From: Zhaonella formicivorans
Lineage (GTDB): Bacteria > Bacillota > DUOV01 > Zhaonellaceae
DNA: 64,000 bases
Direction: 5' to 3'
Assembly: GCF_004353525.1 (NCBI RefSeq)
Contig: NZ_CP085524.1
Location: 558,001 to 622,000 of the forward strand
Shown here in pieces: positions 10,742-23,324 of the stretch. Each line of letters begins with the position of its first letter. Position 1 is the stretch's first letter. Made by a program: the position numbers and the translations under genes. The notes below the pieces were generated by a model that had not been told where the DNA came from, did not search any database, and saw only the letters and a list, made by a program, of their open reading frames with translations.

Positions 10742-11326
10742 ATGTTCGGGTTAAAGGTTGTAGTTGCAGATCACGACGAGGGACATCGCGTTAATATCAA
10801 AGAGAATTTAAGCCAGGCAGGTGCTATAATTGTGGGAGAAGCAGATGACGGGAGAAAGGCGGCGCGGCTGATCTTCGAGCTGCAACCCGATTTGGCTGTC
10901 ATTGATACCGACCTGCCTTTACGGGATGGCCTTGAAATAGCCCGAGTAGTAAATGAGCAAAAAGGATGCCCGATAATCTTAGTGACGGGGAATTTCAGAT
11001 GGGATTTGCTTGAGCAAGCTAAAGAAACGGGGGTTTATAGCTTGCTAATTAAGCCAGTGGCGCCAAACAATTTACTAATTGCGGCCGAATTAGCTGTAAA
11101 TTTACATTTGCGTTTTGTTAACATTGAGCAAGAAAAAAATAGATTAGCAGATAATTTGGAAACCCGTAAACTGGTGGAAAAAGCAAAAGGTTTGCTAATG
11201 CTTGCCAAGAAAGTTGGTGAAGAAGAAGCTTATCATATGATGCGGAAACTTAGCCAAGATAAATCTAAATCAATGAAACAAATAGCCAAAGAAGTTATAA
11301 AAATTTTGGGATCAAAATATGATTAA
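10742..11326 (+). CDS. ANTAR-domain response regulator 1 (RNA-binding antiterminator)
   Basis: This 194-residue protein has a receiver domain (about 1-120) with the phospho-acceptor Asp in DLAVIDTDLPLRDGLE, and a C-terminal ANTAR domain (about 135-190) with NLETRKLVEKAKGLLMLAKK and ...EAYHMMRKLSQDKSKSMKQI. ANTAR proteins bind RNA hairpins with six-base loops and prevent transcription termination. In Clostridium, ANTAR regulators next to glnA are known to act in nitrogen control. The ATG follows TTAGGTGGTTAA. Downstream, after the IS30 element, come three leaders of the expected geometry. Before the IS30 insertion this gene lay directly upstream of the first of them. Confidence 0.93.
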   Translation: MFGLKVVVADHDEGHRVNIKENLSQAGAIIVGEADDGRKAARLIFELQPDLAVIDTDLPLRDGLEIARVVNEQKGCPIILVTGNFRWDLLEQAKETGVYSLLIKPVAPNNLLIAAELAVNLHLRFVNIEQEKNRLADNLETRKLVEKAKGLLMLAKKVGEEEAYHMMRKLSQDKSKSMKQIAKEVIKILGSKYD

Positions 11327-11348
11327 AAATGATTAAAAAATACTGTAT

Positions 11349-12711
<1,363 letters not shown>

Positions 12712-12746
12712 AAATGATTAAAAAATACTGTATATATAAAAAATAG

Positions 12747-12870
12747 TTGCATATTTTAATAACTTAAATTATACTAAAAGCAAACGGTATAGAAAAGGGC
12801 GACGAAGCCTTAAACAGGTAGCTGTTGACTACCTGTTTAAGGCTTTATTATTTTTTATCCGCCTAAAAAA
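12747..12870 (+). promoter_or_regulatory. Promoter and hexaloop-terminator leader of the GS-like operon (candidate ANTAR target)
   Basis: TTGCAT (12747-12752), 17 bases and TATACT (12770-12775) form the promoter. Downstream, GGC (12798-12800), the six-base loop GACGAA (12801-12806) and GCC (12807-12809) make a short hairpin. The same GCC starts a 15-bp terminator stem (12807-12821 with 12829-12843), followed by a T-rich tract. The hairpin and the terminator are mutually exclusive, as in known ANTAR-controlled leaders. The dual-hairpin model has a second hairpin upstream; I cannot identify it with confidence here. Confidence 0.75.
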
Positions 12871-12886: not shown

Positions 12887-14206
12887 ATGGTCAAGTTGTT
12901 TTCTAAGGAAGATGTTTTAAAAAAAGCGGAAGAATATCATGTGAAATTTGTCAGGCTGCAGTTTACCGATATTTTCGGAGTTTTGAAAAATGTAGCTATT
13001 ACGGTAGAAGATTTGCCAAGGGCATTGGATGGTCTGATACTTTTTGACAGTTCAGCGGTAGACGGAATAGTGACTGAAGGAGAAACTGATATCAGACTTA
13101 TACCCGATCCCGATACTTTTGTAATTTTCCCCTGGCGCCCAAGGGAGGGTGCTGTTGCCCGACTCATATGCGATGTAGCTAAAATTGATGGTACTCCCTA
13201 TCCCGGATGTTCAAGGGGTATCTTAAAGCAAACACTTAAGGAAATGGCTGATAATAATTTGAACCTCTATGCCGGGTCAAGGGCCGAATTTTTTATGTTT
13301 AAGGTTAACGAGTCAGGACAGCCAACAATAATACCACACGACCTGGCGGGCTACTGCGATCTTACTCCGCTGGATTTGGGAGAAAATGCCCGCAGAGAAA
13401 TGGTGCTTACTTTGGAAGAGATGGATATTGAAATTGGCTCTTCCCACCATGAACTGGCACCCGGGCAGCATGAAATTGTTCTAAAAGCCGATGGAGCTCT
13501 GGCAATGGCTGATAAAATAGCTACCATGCGGTTTGTAGTAAGGACTATCGCTCAGCGACACGGTCTCCATGCATCTTTTATGCCTAAACCCATTGAAGGA
13601 GTCAGCGGTTCTGGGATGCATCTGCACTTAACTCTTTTCAGCGAGTTTACTAACATCTTTTTCGATGCTGGGGTCAGCAATAAACTTAGCGACAACGCGC
13701 AACATTTTATGGCCGGTATTTTAGAGCATGCAAGGGCTATAACTGCTATCACCAATCCTTTAGTCAATTCTTATAAGAGGTTGATTCCCAATGATACTGC
13801 ACCACGTTTGCGTGGGTGGTCTATAGGAAACAGGGCTACGATGTTAAGAGTGCCTGGTGAAACGGGAGGTGAGGTTTGGATTGATGTACGCACGCCCGAT
13901 GGGGCATGCAATCCATATTTGGCATTAGCTGTGTTGGCTCAAGCTGGCTATGAAGGAATGAGGCAGGAATTGCCTTTAAGCAAACCATTGGAGTGTAAGC
14001 CTGGTTCCTTGTTTAAGACACAAAATATCTTTTTACCGTTAAATTTAGGAGAGGCTTTGGAATCTTTGCATAAGGACAAGATGATCAGCAAAGTGTTGGG
14101 GAAGCATGTTATGGGATTTATTCAAAAAGTGAAACAGGCGGAGTGGAACCGGTATCAGGAAGCAGTTCATCCTTGGGAGGTCAATGAATATTTGAGCAGG
14201 TACTAA
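12887..14206 (+). CDS. Glutamine synthetase-like protein with altered active-site residues
   Basis: This 439-residue protein aligns throughout with type I glutamine synthetase, including an N-terminal beta-grasp ([18 protein letters not shown]), SSHHELAPGQHEI and GSGMHLHLTL. Key catalytic residues differ from the family and from the second copy at 16093. The metal-site GPEAEFF is GSRAEFF (first Glu replaced by Arg). FDGSSIDG is FDSSAVDG (ammonium-site Ser replaced by Ala). The flap GYEAP is NDTAP (Glu lost). The late metal-site IELR is IDVR. It is therefore unlikely to be an ordinary glutamine synthetase; a regulatory paralogue or another ligase activity are options. The ATG at 12887 has only AAAGG very close by; a TTG at 12896 fits the ribosome site better. 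The FMN protein gene follows after 52 bases in the same operon. Confidence 0.85.
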   Translation: MVKLFSKEDVLKKAEEYHVKFVRLQFTDIFGVLKNVAITVEDLPRALDGLILFDSSAVDGIVTEGETDIRLIPDPDTFVIFPWRPREGAVARLICDVAKIDGTPYPGCSRGILKQTLKEMADNNLNLYAGSRAEFFMFKVNESGQPTIIPHDLAGYCDLTPLDLGENARREMVLTLEEMDIEIGSSHHELAPGQHEIVLKADGALAMADKIATMRFVVRTIAQRHGLHASFMPKPIEGVSGSGMHLHLTLFSEFTNIFFDAGVSNKLSDNAQHFMAGILEHARAITAITNPLVNSYKRLIPNDTAPRLRGWSIGNRATMLRVPGETGGEVWIDVRTPDGACNPYLALAVLAQAGYEGMRQELPLSKPLECKPGSLFKTQNIFLPLNLGEALESLHKDKMISKVLGKHVMGFIQKVKQAEWNRYQEAVHPWEVNEYLSRY

Positions 14207-14258: not shown

Positions 14259-15836
14259 GTGAGTTTTAGTAGAGGTATTAATGCCAGTGAGGCCACTAAA
14301 ACAAAAAACAGAACAGGGAAGGATGTATGTCCCTATAGTGGGATGTGTGTTACTTGTTTGGACGGTTGTATAGGCTGGTGTGAAGTAGGTAAATCAGCTG
14401 TGCGAGGTAAAGAAGTACTTTACCCCCAGCCTTTCGGTACTACAACTTCTGCTTCTCAAAAGGATTATCCTGTGGACTATTCCCATTTTAATGTCATGGG
14501 TACTGCAGTGGGCGCATATGGTATTGAAGCAGATAGTGATAAAGCTATCTTTCCTGCAGTCGATATAACAAGCTCCATTGGAGCCCAAGATAAAATCAGG
14601 CTTCGGGTTCCTGTAGTTATCGCCGCTATGGGTTCTACTGCGGTTGCAGCTGATAACTGGGATCACCTAGCAGCGGGCGCAGCTTTAGCGGGGGTGGCAA
14701 TTGCTATCGGGGAAAACGTTTGCGGTATGGATCCTGACCTGGAATTAAAAAACGGACGGGTAAAACATTCTCCTAACCTGGCGAAAAGAGTGAAAGCCTT
14801 TAAGGATTATTATCAAGGCTATGGCACCATTGCGGTACAGGCAAACGTGGAAGATACACGCTTGGGAGTTCAGGAATATGCCATTGAAAAACTTGGAGTA
14901 GAAGCCGTAGAAATTAAATGGGGCCAGGGAGCCAAGGATATTGGAGGGGAAGTAAAGTTAAACTCTTTGGAAAGAGCCCTCCAGCTCAAGAAAAGGGGTT
15001 ATATCGTGCTGCCTGATCCTGAGGATAACCGCGTGCAAGATGCATATCACAGCGGAGCTTTTAAGGAATTTGAGCGCCATTCCAGAATCGGTATGGTCAC
15101 GGAAGAAGGTTTCCATGCACGGGTCGAAGAACTAAGGCGGGCCGGTGCCAAATATATATTTTTGAAAACAGGTGCCTATAGGCCTGCCGATCTGGCCAGG
15201 GCCGTTAAATTTGCTTCCGATGCAAAGATCGACTTATTAACTGTCGATGGTGCCGGTGGAGGTACAGGTATGAGCCCCTGGCGGATGATGAATGAATGGG
15301 GTGTACCTACGGTATATTTACAAGCTCTTTTAACCAAATATTTGGATAAGTTGCAAGCCAAAGGGGCTTTTATACCCAGCGTAGCCATTGCAGGGGGCAT
15401 CGCCCTGGAGGACCAGATGTTTAAAGGATTTGCCCTTGGGGCTCCTTATGTAAAAGCTATTGGTATGGCCCGTGCACCTCTTACAGCGGCTATGGTCGGC
15501 AAGGTAGTCGGCGAAAAGGTTAAGGAAGGAGCTATACCTGCCGAGTATAAAAAATATGGTGATAAATTGGAACAGGTGTTTATTCTGGCTTCGGAGCTGA
15601 AGGAAAAACTGGGTGAAGATTTTGAACGCTTACCGGCTGGGGCTATCGGTGTTTATACCTATTTTGAACGTCTTGGCCAAGGGCTTAAACAATTTATGTG
15701 CGGGGCCAGAAAATTTACTTTAGACTATATTAGCCGCAATGATTTGGCTGCATTGACACCGGAAGCCGCACAACTAAGCGGAATTAGGTATATAATGGAA
15801 TTGGACCACGAAGAAGTGGAAAAAATACTGGCTTGA
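14259..15836 (+). CDS. FMN-binding glutamate synthase-like protein (divergent)
   Basis: This 525-residue protein has the FMN/alpha-beta-barrel domain of glutamate synthase (about residues 100-450; VEIKWGQGAKDIGGEVKL, DLLTVDGAGGGTGMSPWR, SVAIAGGIALEDQMFKG). It lacks the amidotransferase and GXGXG domains. At the place where glutamate synthases carry the 3Fe-4S cysteines it has YVKAIGMARAPLTAAMVG, without Cys. Instead the N-terminus has Cys24, Cys30, Cys33, Cys37 and Cys41, a possible Fe-S site. It is co-transcribed with the altered glutamine synthetase-like gene, so the two may act on the same unknown substrate. GTG start with GGAGGAGATAAG upstream. Confidence 0.85.
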   Translation: MSFSRGINASEATKTKNRTGKDVCPYSGMCVTCLDGCIGWCEVGKSAVRGKEVLYPQPFGTTTSASQKDYPVDYSHFNVMGTAVGAYGIEADSDKAIFPAVDITSSIGAQDKIRLRVPVVIAAMGSTAVAADNWDHLAAGAALAGVAIAIGENVCGMDPDLELKNGRVKHSPNLAKRVKAFKDYYQGYGTIAVQANVEDTRLGVQEYAIEKLGVEAVEIKWGQGAKDIGGEVKLNSLERALQLKKRGYIVLPDPEDNRVQDAYHSGAFKEFERHSRIGMVTEEGFHARVEELRRAGAKYIFLKTGAYRPADLARAVKFASDAKIDLLTVDGAGGGTGMSPWRMMNEWGVPTVYLQALLTKYLDKLQAKGAFIPSVAIAGGIALEDQMFKGFALGAPYVKAIGMARAPLTAAMVGKVVGEKVKEGAIPAEYKKYGDKLEQVFILASELKEKLGEDFERLPAGAIGVYTYFERLGQGLKQFMCGARKFTLDYISRNDLAALTPEAAQLSGIRYIMELDHEEVEKILA

Positions 15837-15967: not shown

Positions 15968-16062
15968 TTGCATGATGAAACGGATAGTGCTATACTAAAG
16001 TCAGCTTTAAGGCAACGAAGCCTACAAGAATGGACTTACCATTCTTGTGGGCTTTTTATTTG
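15968..16062 (+). promoter_or_regulatory. Promoter and hexaloop-terminator leader of glnA (candidate ANTAR target)
   Basis: The promoter is TTGCAT (15968-15973), 17 bases, TATACT (15991-15996), identical in both boxes and spacing to that of the GS-like operon. AGGC, the loop AACGAA (16014-16019; A at position 1 and G at position 4, as in known ANTAR loops) and GCCT form the small hairpin. GCC (16020-16022) also begins the terminator stem 16020-16033 with 16039-16052, followed by TTTTTATTTG. Confidence 0.78.
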
Positions 16063-16092: not shown

Positions 16093-17415
16093 ATGACCAA
16101 CGAAGAAGTTTTAAAGTTAGCCGAGGAGATGGAGGTTAACTCTATCCGGCTGCAGTTTACCGACATCTTTGGCATTTTAAAAAACGTTGCCATTCCCAGG
16201 GAACAGCTCTCTAAAGCGCTGGAAGGAGAGCTAATGTTTGACGGTTCATCCATCGACGGTTTTGTTCGAATTGAAGAATCGGATATGTACCTAAAACCCG
16301 ATCCCAACAGCTTTGCTATTTTTCCCTGGCGTTCTCCGGAGGGCAACATCGCGAGACTAATTTGTGACATTTATAATTCTGACGGCACACCTTTCGAGGG
16401 CTGTCCACGTTACGTACTAAAAAGGGCGCTGGCCGAGGCAGCCGAACTTGGTTACTCCATGTATGTAGGCCCGGAAGCTGAATTTTTCCTGTTCAACACT
16501 GATGAAAAAGGACATCCCACACTGCATACCCAGGATAATGCCGGTTACTTTGACTTGTCACCGGTTGATTTAGGGGAAAACTGCAGAAACGATATTTCTG
16601 CGGCGCTGCAGAAAATGGGTTTCGAGATTGAAGCTTCTCATCACGAAGTAGCGCCAGGTCAGCACGAAATTGATTTTAAATATGCTGATGCGCTGACTAC
16701 CGCTGACAATGTTGTGACGTTTAAATTTGTGGTCCGGACAATTGCCCAGCGTCATGGGCTGCACGCCACATTTATGCCAAAGCCCATAGCGGGCATAAAT
16801 GGTTCGGGAATGCATGCCAACCAATCCCTGTTTAAAGATGGAGCAAATGCTTTCTACGATCCTGAAGGCCCATTAGGTTTAAGTGAAGTGGCTTACTATT
16901 ATATCGGAGGGCTCTTAAAACATGCTCGGGCTATGGCGTCAATTACCAACCCCACCGTCAATTCTTACAAACGGTTGGTGCCAGGCTATGAAGCTCCGGT
17001 TTATCTAGCTTGGTCAGCTTCCAACAGGAGCCCCTTAATTCGCATCCCTGCCAAAAGAGGCGCTTCCACAAGAATCGAACTTAGAAACCCGGACCCGGCC
17101 TGCAACCCTTACTTGGCTTTTGCAGTGATGTTGAAAGCAGGACTAGATGGGATCAAAAACAAGATAACCCCGCCGCCGGCCGTGGACACAAATATTTACA
17201 ACCTGGATAAAGCTACCCGGGCGGATTTAGGCATTAGCAGCCTGCCGGGGGATTTAAACGAAGCCATCAAGGAACTTAAACAGGATGAAGTTATCAAAGA
17301 GGCTCTGGGCTCCCACGTTTATCAGCGTTTTGTTGAAGCAAAACAAATCGAATGGGAATCCTATAAAATGCAGGTACATGCCTGGGAGATTGAACAATAC
17401 CTGACAAAATTTTAA
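16093..17415 (+). CDS. glnA: Glutamine synthetase, type I
   Basis: This 440-residue protein forms glutamine from glutamate, ammonia and ATP. All catalytic landmarks are intact: [64 protein letters not shown] and [16 protein letters not shown]. The length and the lack of an adenylylation tyrosine loop fit the GSI-alpha type of Firmicutes. The ATG at 16093 is set by AAAGGAGGCAGAATAT; the open frame begins 21 codons earlier, inside the leader. Its own leader has the same architecture as that of the GS-like operon. The ANTAR gene 2 follows after 167 bases. Confidence 0.95.
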
Positions 17416-17582: not shown

Positions 17583-18161
17583 ATGGTGTTGCATAAAATA
17601 TTCCTGGCTATTAGTGATACGCGGACCGCTAATAAAACTAAAAGTTTACTGCAAAAAAACGAATATGCTATCAGCGGAGAAGCCAAAGATGGGCCGGGCG
17701 CAATACGCCTTGTCCGCGCACTCCTACCCGATTTGGTTATCCTGGACAGTGAACTTCCCGGACTTAGTACTATACAAACGCTGGAATCTTTAGCCGACTT
17801 AGATATACCTATAGTATTACTAGTGAGAGATTGGCGGCAGGATTTGATCCAGCAGAGCCGAAATTATAATGTTATGGCTTATTTAGCGCGACCGGTCGAA
17901 GAGCTCACTTTGCTGCCAGCGGTAGAAACAGCGCTGCTTAATTCCCAAAAAATAAAAGAACTTGGTCAAGAAATCAAAAAATTGAAGCAGGACTTGCAAA
18001 TCAGGAAGCTAGTAGAAAAAGCGAAAGGTTTGCTAATGCATAAATTCAAGCTTACAGAAGATGAAGCGTATGTCTTAATGCGCAAAAAAGCTATGGATAA
18101 TTCCCTGACCTTACGTCAAGTAGCAGAAGCAATAATAAAAAAGCTGAATGTAACTAAATAA
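17583..18161 (+). CDS. ANTAR-domain response regulator 2 (RNA-binding antiterminator)
   Basis: This 192-residue protein has a receiver domain (Asp in LPDLVILDSELPGLST) and a C-terminal ANTAR domain with LQIRKLVEKAKGLLMHKFKL and EDEAYVLMRKKAMDN, very close to ANTAR 1. The ATG at 17583 (MVLHKIFLAISD) begins the receiver fold; the frame extends upstream without family similarity. The ribosome site there is weak (AGGGTAAGGGG about 10-20 bases upstream). Position between glnA and asnB makes nitrogen control the likely role. No dedicated histidine kinase is in the window, so the input signal is unknown. Confidence 0.92.
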   Translation: MVLHKIFLAISDTRTANKTKSLLQKNEYAISGEAKDGPGAIRLVRALLPDLVILDSELPGLSTIQTLESLADLDIPIVLLVRDWRQDLIQQSRNYNVMAYLARPVEELTLLPAVETALLNSQKIKELGQEIKKLKQDLQIRKLVEKAKGLLMHKFKLTEDEAYVLMRKKAMDNSLTLRQVAEAIIKKLNVTK

Positions 18162-21821: not shown

Positions 21822-23324
21822 ATGACACTAAGCTACACTACACCGGCTTTTCTAATCGAACGTAATAAAGATAGATGTATTGACTGCCAGGTTTGTGTAC
21901 GGCAGTGCGCTAACTCCGCTCATAAATGGGATGCGGAAGAAGAAAAAGTTGTTTCTGATGATTCCCTGTGCGTTAACTGCCACCGCTGCGTAGTGATGTG
22001 TCCCACCAGGGCGCTTTCCATACGTAAATTTCCCCTGGAATACAGGGAAAATGCCCATTGGACTGCGGCCACAATCACTAACATTTACCGGCAAGCAGAA
22101 ACCGGCGGGATTCTCCTGACAGGTATGGGGAACGACAAGCCATACCCCGTTTACTGGGACCGTATCTTGCTTAACGCCAGTCAGGTGACCAATCCGTCTA
22201 TTGACCCGCTGCGGGAGCCAATGGAGGTGAAGACTTTCCTCGGCAGGAAACCGGATTGCTTAAAAGTCAAGGACGGGAAGCTGGCAGAAAAGCTTCCTCC
22301 CCAGCTGGAACTGGATGTGCCGGTGATGTTCTCCGCCATGTCCTTCGGATCTATCAGCTTAAATGCTGTTAAATCCTTAGCCCGGGCAGCGGAAATGGAG
22401 GGAACCTTTTTTAATACAGGCGAAGGCGGCTTACACCAGGAGTTAGTTAAATTTGGCAGAAATGCCATTGTGCAGGTTGCTTCCGGCCGCTTTGGCGTGC
22501 ATCCCGAATACCTGGAGGCCGGCGCAGCTATTGAAATAAAAATAGGTCAGGGCGCTAAACCCGGGATCGGGGGGCACCTGCCCGGAGAAAAAGTGGGCAA
22601 GGAAGTTTCCCAGACTAGAATGATTCCGGAAGGGACCGACGCCATCTCGCCGGCACCACACCACGATATTTACTCCATTGAGGATCTTCGGCAGCTGATT
22701 TATTCCTTAAAGGAAGCTACTAATTATGAAAAACCTGTATCAGTGAAAATTGCCGCAGTGCATAACGTGGCTGCCATTGCTTCGGGGATTGTCCGGGCTG
22801 GCGCCGATATGGTGGTAATCGACGGTTTCCGGGGAGGTACCGGCGCCGCACCTTTGATGATCCGTGATAATGTGGGTATCCCTATCGAATTGGCCTTAGC
22901 GGCTGTTGATTCACGCCTGCGCAGCGAAGGGATCCGGCATCTTGCTTCTCTGGTGGTAGCAGGCAGCATTCGGAACAGTGCCGATGTGGTTAAAGCCGTA
23001 GCCTTGGGTGCCGATGCCGTATATATTGGCACCGCCGCTTTGCTATCTTTAGGTTGCCACTTATGTCAAAAATGCTATACCGGCAAGTGCAACTGGGGTA
23101 TAGCCACTCAGGACCCCCAGCTTGTTAAAAGGTTAAATCCTGAAATAGGCGCTGAAAGGGCTGCCAACTTGCTCCGTGCCTGGAAACATGAAATTAAGGA
23201 GATGCTGGGCGGAATGGGTATCAATGCCCTGGAAAGCCTGCGCGGAAACCGCTTGATGCTGCGCGGCATCAATCTCTCTGACCGGGAGCTAAATATTTTA
23301 GGTATTAAAGCGGCTGGGGAATAG
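21822..23324 (+). CDS. Glutamate synthase FMN subunit with N-terminal ferredoxin domain (archaeal type)
   Basis: This 500-residue protein is the central FMN domain of a split glutamate synthase, where 2-oxoglutarate and ammonia form glutamate. The N-terminus carries two 4Fe-4S sites: Cys19, Cys22, Cys25, Cys29, and Cys50, Cys53, Cys56, Cys60. The barrel shows KIGQGAKPGIGGHLPGEKV, ISPAPHHDIYSIEDL and VIDGFRGGTGAAP. The 3Fe-4S ligands are present in SLGCHLCQKCYTGKCNWGIA, unlike the FMN protein at 14259. It follows the amidotransferase gene after a repeat-rich gap of about 200 bases and precedes a ferredoxin gene by 11 bases. Confidence 0.93.
   Translation: MTLSYTTPAFLIERNKDRCIDCQVCVRQCANSAHKWDAEEEKVVSDDSLCVNCHRCVVMCPTRALSIRKFPLEYRENAHWTAATITNIYRQAETGGILLTGMGNDKPYPVYWDRILLNASQVTNPSIDPLREPMEVKTFLGRKPDCLKVKDGKLAEKLPPQLELDVPVMFSAMSFGSISLNAVKSLARAAEMEGTFFNTGEGGLHQELVKFGRNAIVQVASGRFGVHPEYLEAGAAIEIKIGQGAKPGIGGHLPGEKVGKEVSQTRMIPEGTDAISPAPHHDIYSIEDLRQLIYSLKEATNYEKPVSVKIAAVHNVAAIASGIVRAGADMVVIDGFRGGTGAAPLMIRDNVGIPIELALAAVDSRLRSEGIRHLASLVVAGSIRNSADVVKAVALGADAVYIGTAALLSLGCHLCQKCYTGKCNWGIATQDPQLVKRLNPEIGAERAANLLRAWKHEIKEMLGGMGINALESLRGNRLMLRGINLSDRELNILGIKAAGE

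Follow-up and report, generated by a model that had tools for sequence, protein, structure and literature searches.

Degenerate glutamine synthetases paired with a subfamily of ANTAR proteins: a proposed nitrogen sensor in Bacillota_B anaerobes

In a 64,000-nucleotide stretch of the Zhaonella formicivorans genome (the window), we characterized a gene for a glutamine synthetase (GS) homologue that belongs to a distinct clade. Within this clade catalytic residues have been lost under purifying selection, the genes are paired and jointly inherited with one subfamily of ANTAR proteins, and ANTAR-type leaders occur upstream. By analogy with AmiC-AmiR, we propose, with a probability of about 0.6, that the non-catalytic GS senses glutamine, glutamate or a nucleotide and gates the ANTAR antiterminator of the GS-GOGAT genes. 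Somewhat more cautiously, we lean towards extending this proposal to the whole clade of dead GS proteins, which would then be a dedicated intracellular nitrogen sensor of an ANTAR antiterminator in anaerobes related to Desulfotomaculum and Thermincola. The features of the region are listed in Table 1.

Table 1. Features of the region around the degenerate GS gene (window coordinates).
Feature	Position	Strand	Remarks
ANTAR response regulator (receiver, coiled coil, ANTAR RNA-binding domain)	10742..11326	+	conserved partner of the degenerate GS
Left 22-bp direct repeat flanking the insertion element	11327..11348	.	identical to 12712-12733
IS30-like insertion element, between the ANTAR gene and the degenerate GS	11354..12707	+	transposase 11430-12509, HTH_38 and rve domains
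Right 22-bp direct repeat flanking the insertion element	12712..12733	.	identical to the left copy
Sigma70-like promoter before the degenerate GS	12747..12775	+	TTGCAT-N17-TATACT, same as that of glnA at 15968
P2-type antiterminator hairpin	12796..12811	+	AGGGC-GACGAA-GCCTT; hexaloop G4 present, position 1 is G, not A
Intrinsic terminator before the degenerate GS	12805..12850	+	17-bp perfect stem 12805-12821/12829-12845, then T-rich
Degenerate type I GS, predicted non-catalytic	12887..14206	+	439 aa
FMN-domain glutamate-synthase-like protein	14259..15836	+	Pfam Glu_synthase, 66 bits
Promoter of the glnA leader	15968..15996	+	TTGCAT-N17-TATACT
ANTAR-type glnA leader	16010..16057	+	hairpin AGGC-AACGAA-GCCT (A1, G4) overlapping a terminator
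Intact type I GS, GlnA	16093..17415	+	TIGR00653 604.3 bits, above cut-off
Second ANTAR response regulator, linked to intact glnA	17583..18161	+	Pfam ANTAR, 67.9 bits

Sequence and predicted fold of the degenerate glutamine synthetase

Pfam profiles matched both GS domains of the protein (Gln-synt_N, 80.5 bits; Gln-synt_C, 346.4 bits), identifying it as a full-length type I GS (GS-I) homologue. Its score against TIGR00653, the GlnA equivalog, was 396.8 bits, under the NCBIfam equivalog cut-off of 429.15 bits. An earlier note on this DNA had claimed that four catalytic residues are replaced, and this is borne out by alignments to solved GS-I enzymes, which are locally gapless at the four sites, so that the residues are replaced and not displaced. 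The first ligand of the n2 metal is R132 instead of glutamate (Salmonella E129) and the last is D333, again in place of glutamate (Salmonella E357), while the ammonium pocket carries A57 for serine (Salmonella S53) and the flap T304 for glutamate (Salmonella E327; Bacillus E304). The roles of the sites were taken from Salmonella GS (PMC6529630), from Bacillus GS (PMC9249791) and, for S53, from PMC6199252. Further changes that the earlier note did not mention are S55 for Gly51, T63 for Bacillus Arg62, a residue involved in feedback inhibition and regulator docking (PMC9249791), W331 for arginine and H247 for asparagine. Intact are D54 (Salmonella D50), the n1 ligands E134, E189 and E196, and G241, R298, R316, R321 and R335 (Salmonella G265, R321, R339, R344 and R359). 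With regard to the two-metal ligand set (E129, E131, E212, E220, H269 and E357), the n1 site is complete and the n2 site is hit at E129 and E357.

The change of serine to alanine is by itself no evidence of inactivity, since the S54A variant of Providencia GS has higher activity (PMC6199252), and aspartate for glutamate at E357 is a conservative change. The window protein lacks the flap glutamate and, owing to R132 and D333, the full metal-ligand set of a catalytic GlnA, and it is predicted to be non-catalytic. Its predicted structure is that of a normal GS subunit (pLDDT 87.5, pTM 0.92). Among solved chains, the model comes closest to the GS of Paenibacillus polymyxa bound to glutamine and to a peptide of GlnR (Z 54.2, 1.7 Å, 426 residues), and comparison with 7tfa_B gave a TM score of 0.93. 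Lengsin (PDB 2j9i) was a remote match. This protein of the vertebrate lens is likewise a GS-I homologue and is regarded as a non-enzyme; it differs from the window protein in being eukaryotic, in its unrelated context and in its structural role.

A conserved clade that has lost catalytic residues

An initial search was made among 61 relatives, and a maximum-likelihood tree of 62 GS sequences placed the window protein in a fast-evolving, monophyletic group of seven (support 99/98) outside the ordinary GlnA proteins. A profile of these seven, run against 398 genomes of the phylum, yielded 22 members with a sharp score separation from ordinary GlnA. A 23rd member was found in genome G299, where its apparent absence was an artefact of a shadow ORF that masked it. 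A scan of the genome collection with the single window protein as query recovered no members; an alignment of clade fragments, used to query named genomes, succeeded where the single protein had not and added Desulfofundulus, Desulfotruncus, Desulfoscipio, Desulforamulus, Pelotomaculum and Thermincola-like genomes. With identical copies removed, the final set comprised 67 degenerate members and 121 ordinary GS-I sequences of the same loci. The 67 members form one clade (support 0.986), with longer branches than those of GlnA, and it is spread over at least nine GTDB families of Bacillota_B anaerobes (Desulfotomaculum relatives, Thermincola, Pelotomaculum).

The earlier note had proposed to look for the replacements in orthologues. 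Both the flap glutamate (mostly replaced by leucine) and Ser53 (replaced by valine, alanine or isoleucine) are lost in 67/67 degenerate proteins and in 0/121 ordinary ones. The n2 site has lost one ligand or more in 50/67, again against 0/121, and two in 35/67; the n2 ligands are complete in 17/67, and an n1 ligand is lost in 12/67. By parsimony, the metal ligands were lost repeatedly and independently, with six changes at E129, nine at H269 and three at E357. Residue 63 is arginine in just 10/67, and D54, G241, R298 and R316 (Salmonella D50, G265, R321 and R339) are invariant through the clade. Of the positions that set the clade apart from GlnA, 14 fall in the five active-site loops, where 6.2 were expected (p 0.001). 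Among these loops are the D50 loop and the E flap, on which GlnR and TnrA dock in Bacillus-type GS (PMC9249791). In the most decayed member (genome G049, locus L053, 15072-16205), the protein is down to 377 aa with hardly any active-site motif left, and the gene order ANTAR, GS, FMN gene, glnA is preserved. Annotation pipelines should be warned that genes of this clade resemble glutamine synthetase, yet most probably cannot be one.

A decaying pseudogene that persists in a nitrogen operon would also show stepwise loss of catalytic residues on long branches. However, dN/dS among unsaturated pairs is 0.06-0.12, which indicates strong purifying selection, reading frames are open in all 67 members, C157 and S55, two clade-specific residues, are each present in 66/67, and the clade occurs in at least nine families; we consider decay extremely improbable and rejected it on the basis of the dN/dS values and the open frames. 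The suggestion of the earlier note that the protein has been kept but repurposed is strongly supported by the monophyly of the clade, by purifying selection and by the fixation of the flap and Ser53 replacements in all members.

The earlier note had named three possible new roles, one of them a ligase for another substrate. If the protein were an active gamma-glutamyl ligase using some other amine in place of ammonium, as GlnA4, PauA7 and GmaS do, an altered ammonium pocket and no flap glutamate would be expected, as found here; GlnA4 has F331 and PauA7 W296 in place of E327 (PMC6529630). Because those enzymes lose the flap glutamate too, this is, together with a mixed oligomer with GlnA (discussed below), among the strongest functional rivals to a sensor. 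All members keep D50, and the 17 with complete n2 ligands might keep some ligase chemistry. However, GlnA4 and PauA7 retain all six metal ligands (PMC6529630), unlike the window protein, with its arginine for E129 and aspartate for E357, and unlike the 50 members, the window protein among them, with n2 losses or the 12 with n1 losses. The G049 protein still has its ANTAR neighbour despite having nearly no active site, and no amine catabolic genes were seen travelling with the degenerate GS, whose neighbours across relatives are ANTAR, GOGAT-like, glnA and glutamate dehydrogenase genes. Ligase activity is proven for GlnA4, and the gene context of these ligases is a different one. A ligase role is therefore disfavoured and seems to us distinctly unlikely.

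A second, separate degenerating GS was observed in genome G033 (L066, 7901-9232), with an intact DGSS motif, an NDT flap, other changes and a long branch. It is surrounded by ORFs that by eye are LexA-, Hfq-, MiaA- and MutL-like, and an ANTAR neighbour is absent.

The ANTAR partner, the gene neighbourhood and the leader RNAs

The ANTAR protein encoded upstream of the degenerate GS in the window matched Response_reg (63.6 bits) and ANTAR (63.9 bits) in Pfam, and its model (pLDDT 94.1) has the EutV-RNA complex as best PDB match (TM 0.85). Such a gene lies immediately upstream of the degenerate GS in 64/67 loci, in several of them with a 4-bp overlap; the criterion was the same strand and a distance within 600 bp, and in the window the two genes stand 1.56 kb apart across an insertion element. 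In 2/67 more loci the ANTAR gene is adjacent but divergent, and L156 is the sole member without one. An apparent absence in G259 proved to be an artefact of a shadow ORF. Among the ordinary GS-I genes of the same loci, 65/121 have an ANTAR neighbour; the difference (Fisher p 3e-10) is descriptive, since the sequences are related. As ANTAR genes are common beside ordinary glnA too, pairing by itself does not set the dead paralogue apart. In the ANTAR tree, however, one branch with support 1.0 holds 59 of the 64 proteins linked to a degenerate GS and none of the 65 linked to GlnA (best value with shuffled labels, 17), so the former are a subfamily of their own, inherited jointly with the GS.

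These data also bear on the possibility that the degenerate GS is simply a co-regulated nitrogen gene with a structural or storage role, its ANTAR neighbour being controlled by a kinase or by GlnA. Gene adjacency could reflect co-regulation only, and the frequency of ANTAR genes beside ordinary GlnA is in line with this. Deletion of the type I GS of Clostridium thermocellum reportedly deregulates nitrogen metabolism, to judge by the title of a 2017 study by Rydzak, which we counted in its favour. The same organism has a nitrogen gene cluster in which an ANTAR gene (Clo1313_2030) and the type I glnA (Clo1313_2031) are neighbours (PMC4676874, PMC9888227). Co-regulation alone does not predict separate ANTAR branches for degenerate GS and GlnA, and we regard it as very unlikely to be the whole explanation.

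In the receivers of the ANTAR proteins, the phospho-accepting aspartate is kept in 34/64 proteins linked to the degenerate GS and in 35/65 linked to GlnA, and it is kept in the window partner. Since it is present in about half of the receivers, the window's included, a histidine kinase encoded elsewhere may act on them. An early impression that this residue is lost more often beside the degenerate GS (16 versus 5 losses, among 22 and 21) vanished at 30/64 versus 30/65. The second acidic residue is gone in most proteins linked to the degenerate GS, and the sole clear difference between the receivers is the conserved lysine, which is lost in 24/64 of them versus 5/65 of the GlnA-linked ones. The genome encodes a third ANTAR protein (L204; G000:C1:2581640-2581798, minus strand), which is EutVW-like with a canonical receiver and is the only one next to a histidine kinase. 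The second ANTAR gene of Table 1 directly follows intact glnA and its product has lost the first acidic receiver residues, so that GlnA itself may signal to it. In genome G210, an ANTAR gene of the subfamily linked to the degenerate GS (L121, 13694-14431) was observed with its GS partner absent and a glutamate-dehydrogenase-like gene directly after it.

Directly downstream of the degenerate GS, the FMN-domain gene is present in most relatives as in the window; its product has a cysteine-rich N-terminus and is distinct from the gltB product encoded at 21822. Intact GS-I is encoded in 20 of 22 genomes with a degenerate GS, the remaining two genomes being incomplete. This co-occurrence and the conservation of the fold and of the C-terminal region would suit a non-catalytic regulatory subunit that enters mixed dodecamers with GlnA and tunes its activity or its ANTAR docking, and dead paralogues that activate a live one are described for other enzymes (PMC3663545). 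A mixed oligomer, another of the roles named in the earlier note, is compatible with the data and also with a sensor role. However, the immediate neighbour is nearly everywhere the ANTAR gene and not glnA, which usually lies at least two genes away or elsewhere, and as the main function we consider it unlikely.

The element between the two genes has terminal inverted repeats at 11354-11374 and 12687-12707. It is absent from this position in relatives, and three more full-length copies of approximately 100% identity are present in the genome (four in total), which indicates a recent insertion. The two-gene unit that it has lately interrupted is conserved, and both of its genes are still open. 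The direct repeats that flank IS30 elements are usually 2-3 bp long, and the 22-bp repeat found here is unusually long for this family.

According to the earlier note, the degenerate GS gene heads an operon under the kind of leader found on nitrogen genes. The gene does have its own promoter-like site and leader, both matching those of glnA, and the promoter motif occurs exactly twice within the window. The statement that it heads an operon does not hold for the family, since in nearly all relatives the unit starts with the ANTAR gene, which the insertion has split off here. The P2 hairpin and the terminator share sequence between the 3' arm of the former and the 5' arm of the latter, which makes the two structures mutually exclusive, and the leader folds with a z-score of -4.7. 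All loci were scanned without bias for hairpins that have a hexaloop and overlap a terminator, and the A1..G4 loop was present in 189 of 582 cases, the runner-up combination reaching 42; the A1/G4 hexaloop is the recognition signature of ANTAR proteins (PMC3369931, PMC3369936). Strict ANTAR-type leaders with A1 and G4 precede 43/67 degenerate and 42/121 ordinary GS genes, and ANTAR leaders on GS and GOGAT genes are known in Desulfotomaculum (PMC3369931). The P1 hairpin of the canonical two-hairpin P1-P2 target was sought in the leaders of degenerate GS genes, including that of the window, and was not found there. Within 45 nt upstream of P2, an A1/G4 hairpin occurs in 49/174 leaders versus 20.5 in shuffles and is clear in some glnA leaders. 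Tandem P1-P2 targets were clear in the leaders of L044, L127, L128 and others, and 87 further A1/G4 overlaps of hairpin and terminator were observed that were not assigned to the genes classified here. A search for Rfam families across the region returned a chance match only.

A non-catalytic glutamine synthetase as proposed sensor of an ANTAR antiterminator

Among the three roles considered in the earlier note, that of a sensor is now favoured, because the conserved partner, a context absent from that note, is an ANTAR antiterminator. We propose that the degenerate GS no longer makes glutamine and acts as the signal-input partner of the adjacent ANTAR protein. The protein retains the GS fold and, for the most part, the site for glutamate and nucleotide, but it has given up the ammonium pocket, catalytic flap and n2 metal site; as the binding site is mostly retained without the catalytic parts, glutamine, glutamate and/or a nucleotide may still be bound without turnover. 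The bound ligand would serve as an indicator of the nitrogen state, and the ligand state of the GS would determine whether the ANTAR protein is held, released or activated. The ANTAR protein would in turn act on the leaders of the degenerate GS, of glnA and of other nitrogen genes by stabilizing their P2 hairpin, which would keep the terminator from forming and turn on the GS-GOGAT system when nitrogen is short. Catalytic inactivity and the physical binding of the GS to the ANTAR protein are inferred, as are the ligand's identity and the direction in which the switch works. Because a PII protein is encoded in the same genome, the degenerate GS would not be the sole nitrogen sensor.

A close parallel is provided by AmiC-AmiR and NasS-NasT, in which ligand-binding proteins are the partners of ANTAR proteins (PMC3369936, PMC3795266). 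Here, too, a putative ligand-binding protein is encoded next to an ANTAR antiterminator for nitrogen genes, and the genes are adjacent and co-inherited (64/67 on the same strand plus 2/67 divergent; 59/64 in one ANTAR branch). Many of the receivers (30/64) may likewise be pseudo-receivers that are not phosphorylated, having lost the phospho-accepting aspartate, which the window's receiver keeps. In contrast, AmiC and NasS are not glutamine synthetases, and the direct complex proven for them is what we would expect for the degenerate GS.

The feedback-inhibited GS that acts with GlnR or TnrA in Bacillus, Paenibacillus, Listeria and Staphylococcus shares the GS-I alpha fold and serves as nitrogen sensor for a regulator whose gene shares its operon, the role proposed here for the degenerate GS. 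There, however, the sensor is an active enzyme with a second job and its partner is a DNA-binding regulator, whereas here a dedicated degenerate paralogue would act on a partner that binds RNA. Arg62 and Glu304, which lock the GS-GlnR/TnrA complex with glutamine, are lost in the window protein (T63, T304), and the flap acid is lost in the entire clade.

ANTAR genes adjoin glnA in clostridia (PMC4676874), and the pairs glnA-nitR of Clostridium saccharobutylicum and Clo1313_2030-2031 of C. thermocellum resemble the present one in placing an ANTAR gene beside a type I GS. The GS of these pairs is described as an enzyme, and no degenerate dedicated paralogue was found in the literature searched, of which coverage was partial. 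The same partial search found no account of degenerate GS proteins that pair, as a clade, with a subfamily of ANTAR proteins, and no GS-like partner of an ANTAR protein. ANTAR regulators with ligand-sensing partners being already known, the new element would be a retired enzyme in this dedicated role.

ANTAR proteins have been linked to nitrogen genes since 2012 (PMC3369931), and many of them have no neighbouring kinase. To the question of what these sense, a retired GS offers a concrete and testable answer for a large group of bacteria. If the proposal is true, what was once an enzyme now reads compounds that it used to consume or produce, and antitermination of the GS-GOGAT genes is under its control. 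The jobs of enzyme and sensor, joined in a single GS in Bacillus, would then have been separated in these anaerobes, and the clade would represent a natural experiment in which an enzyme becomes a receptor.
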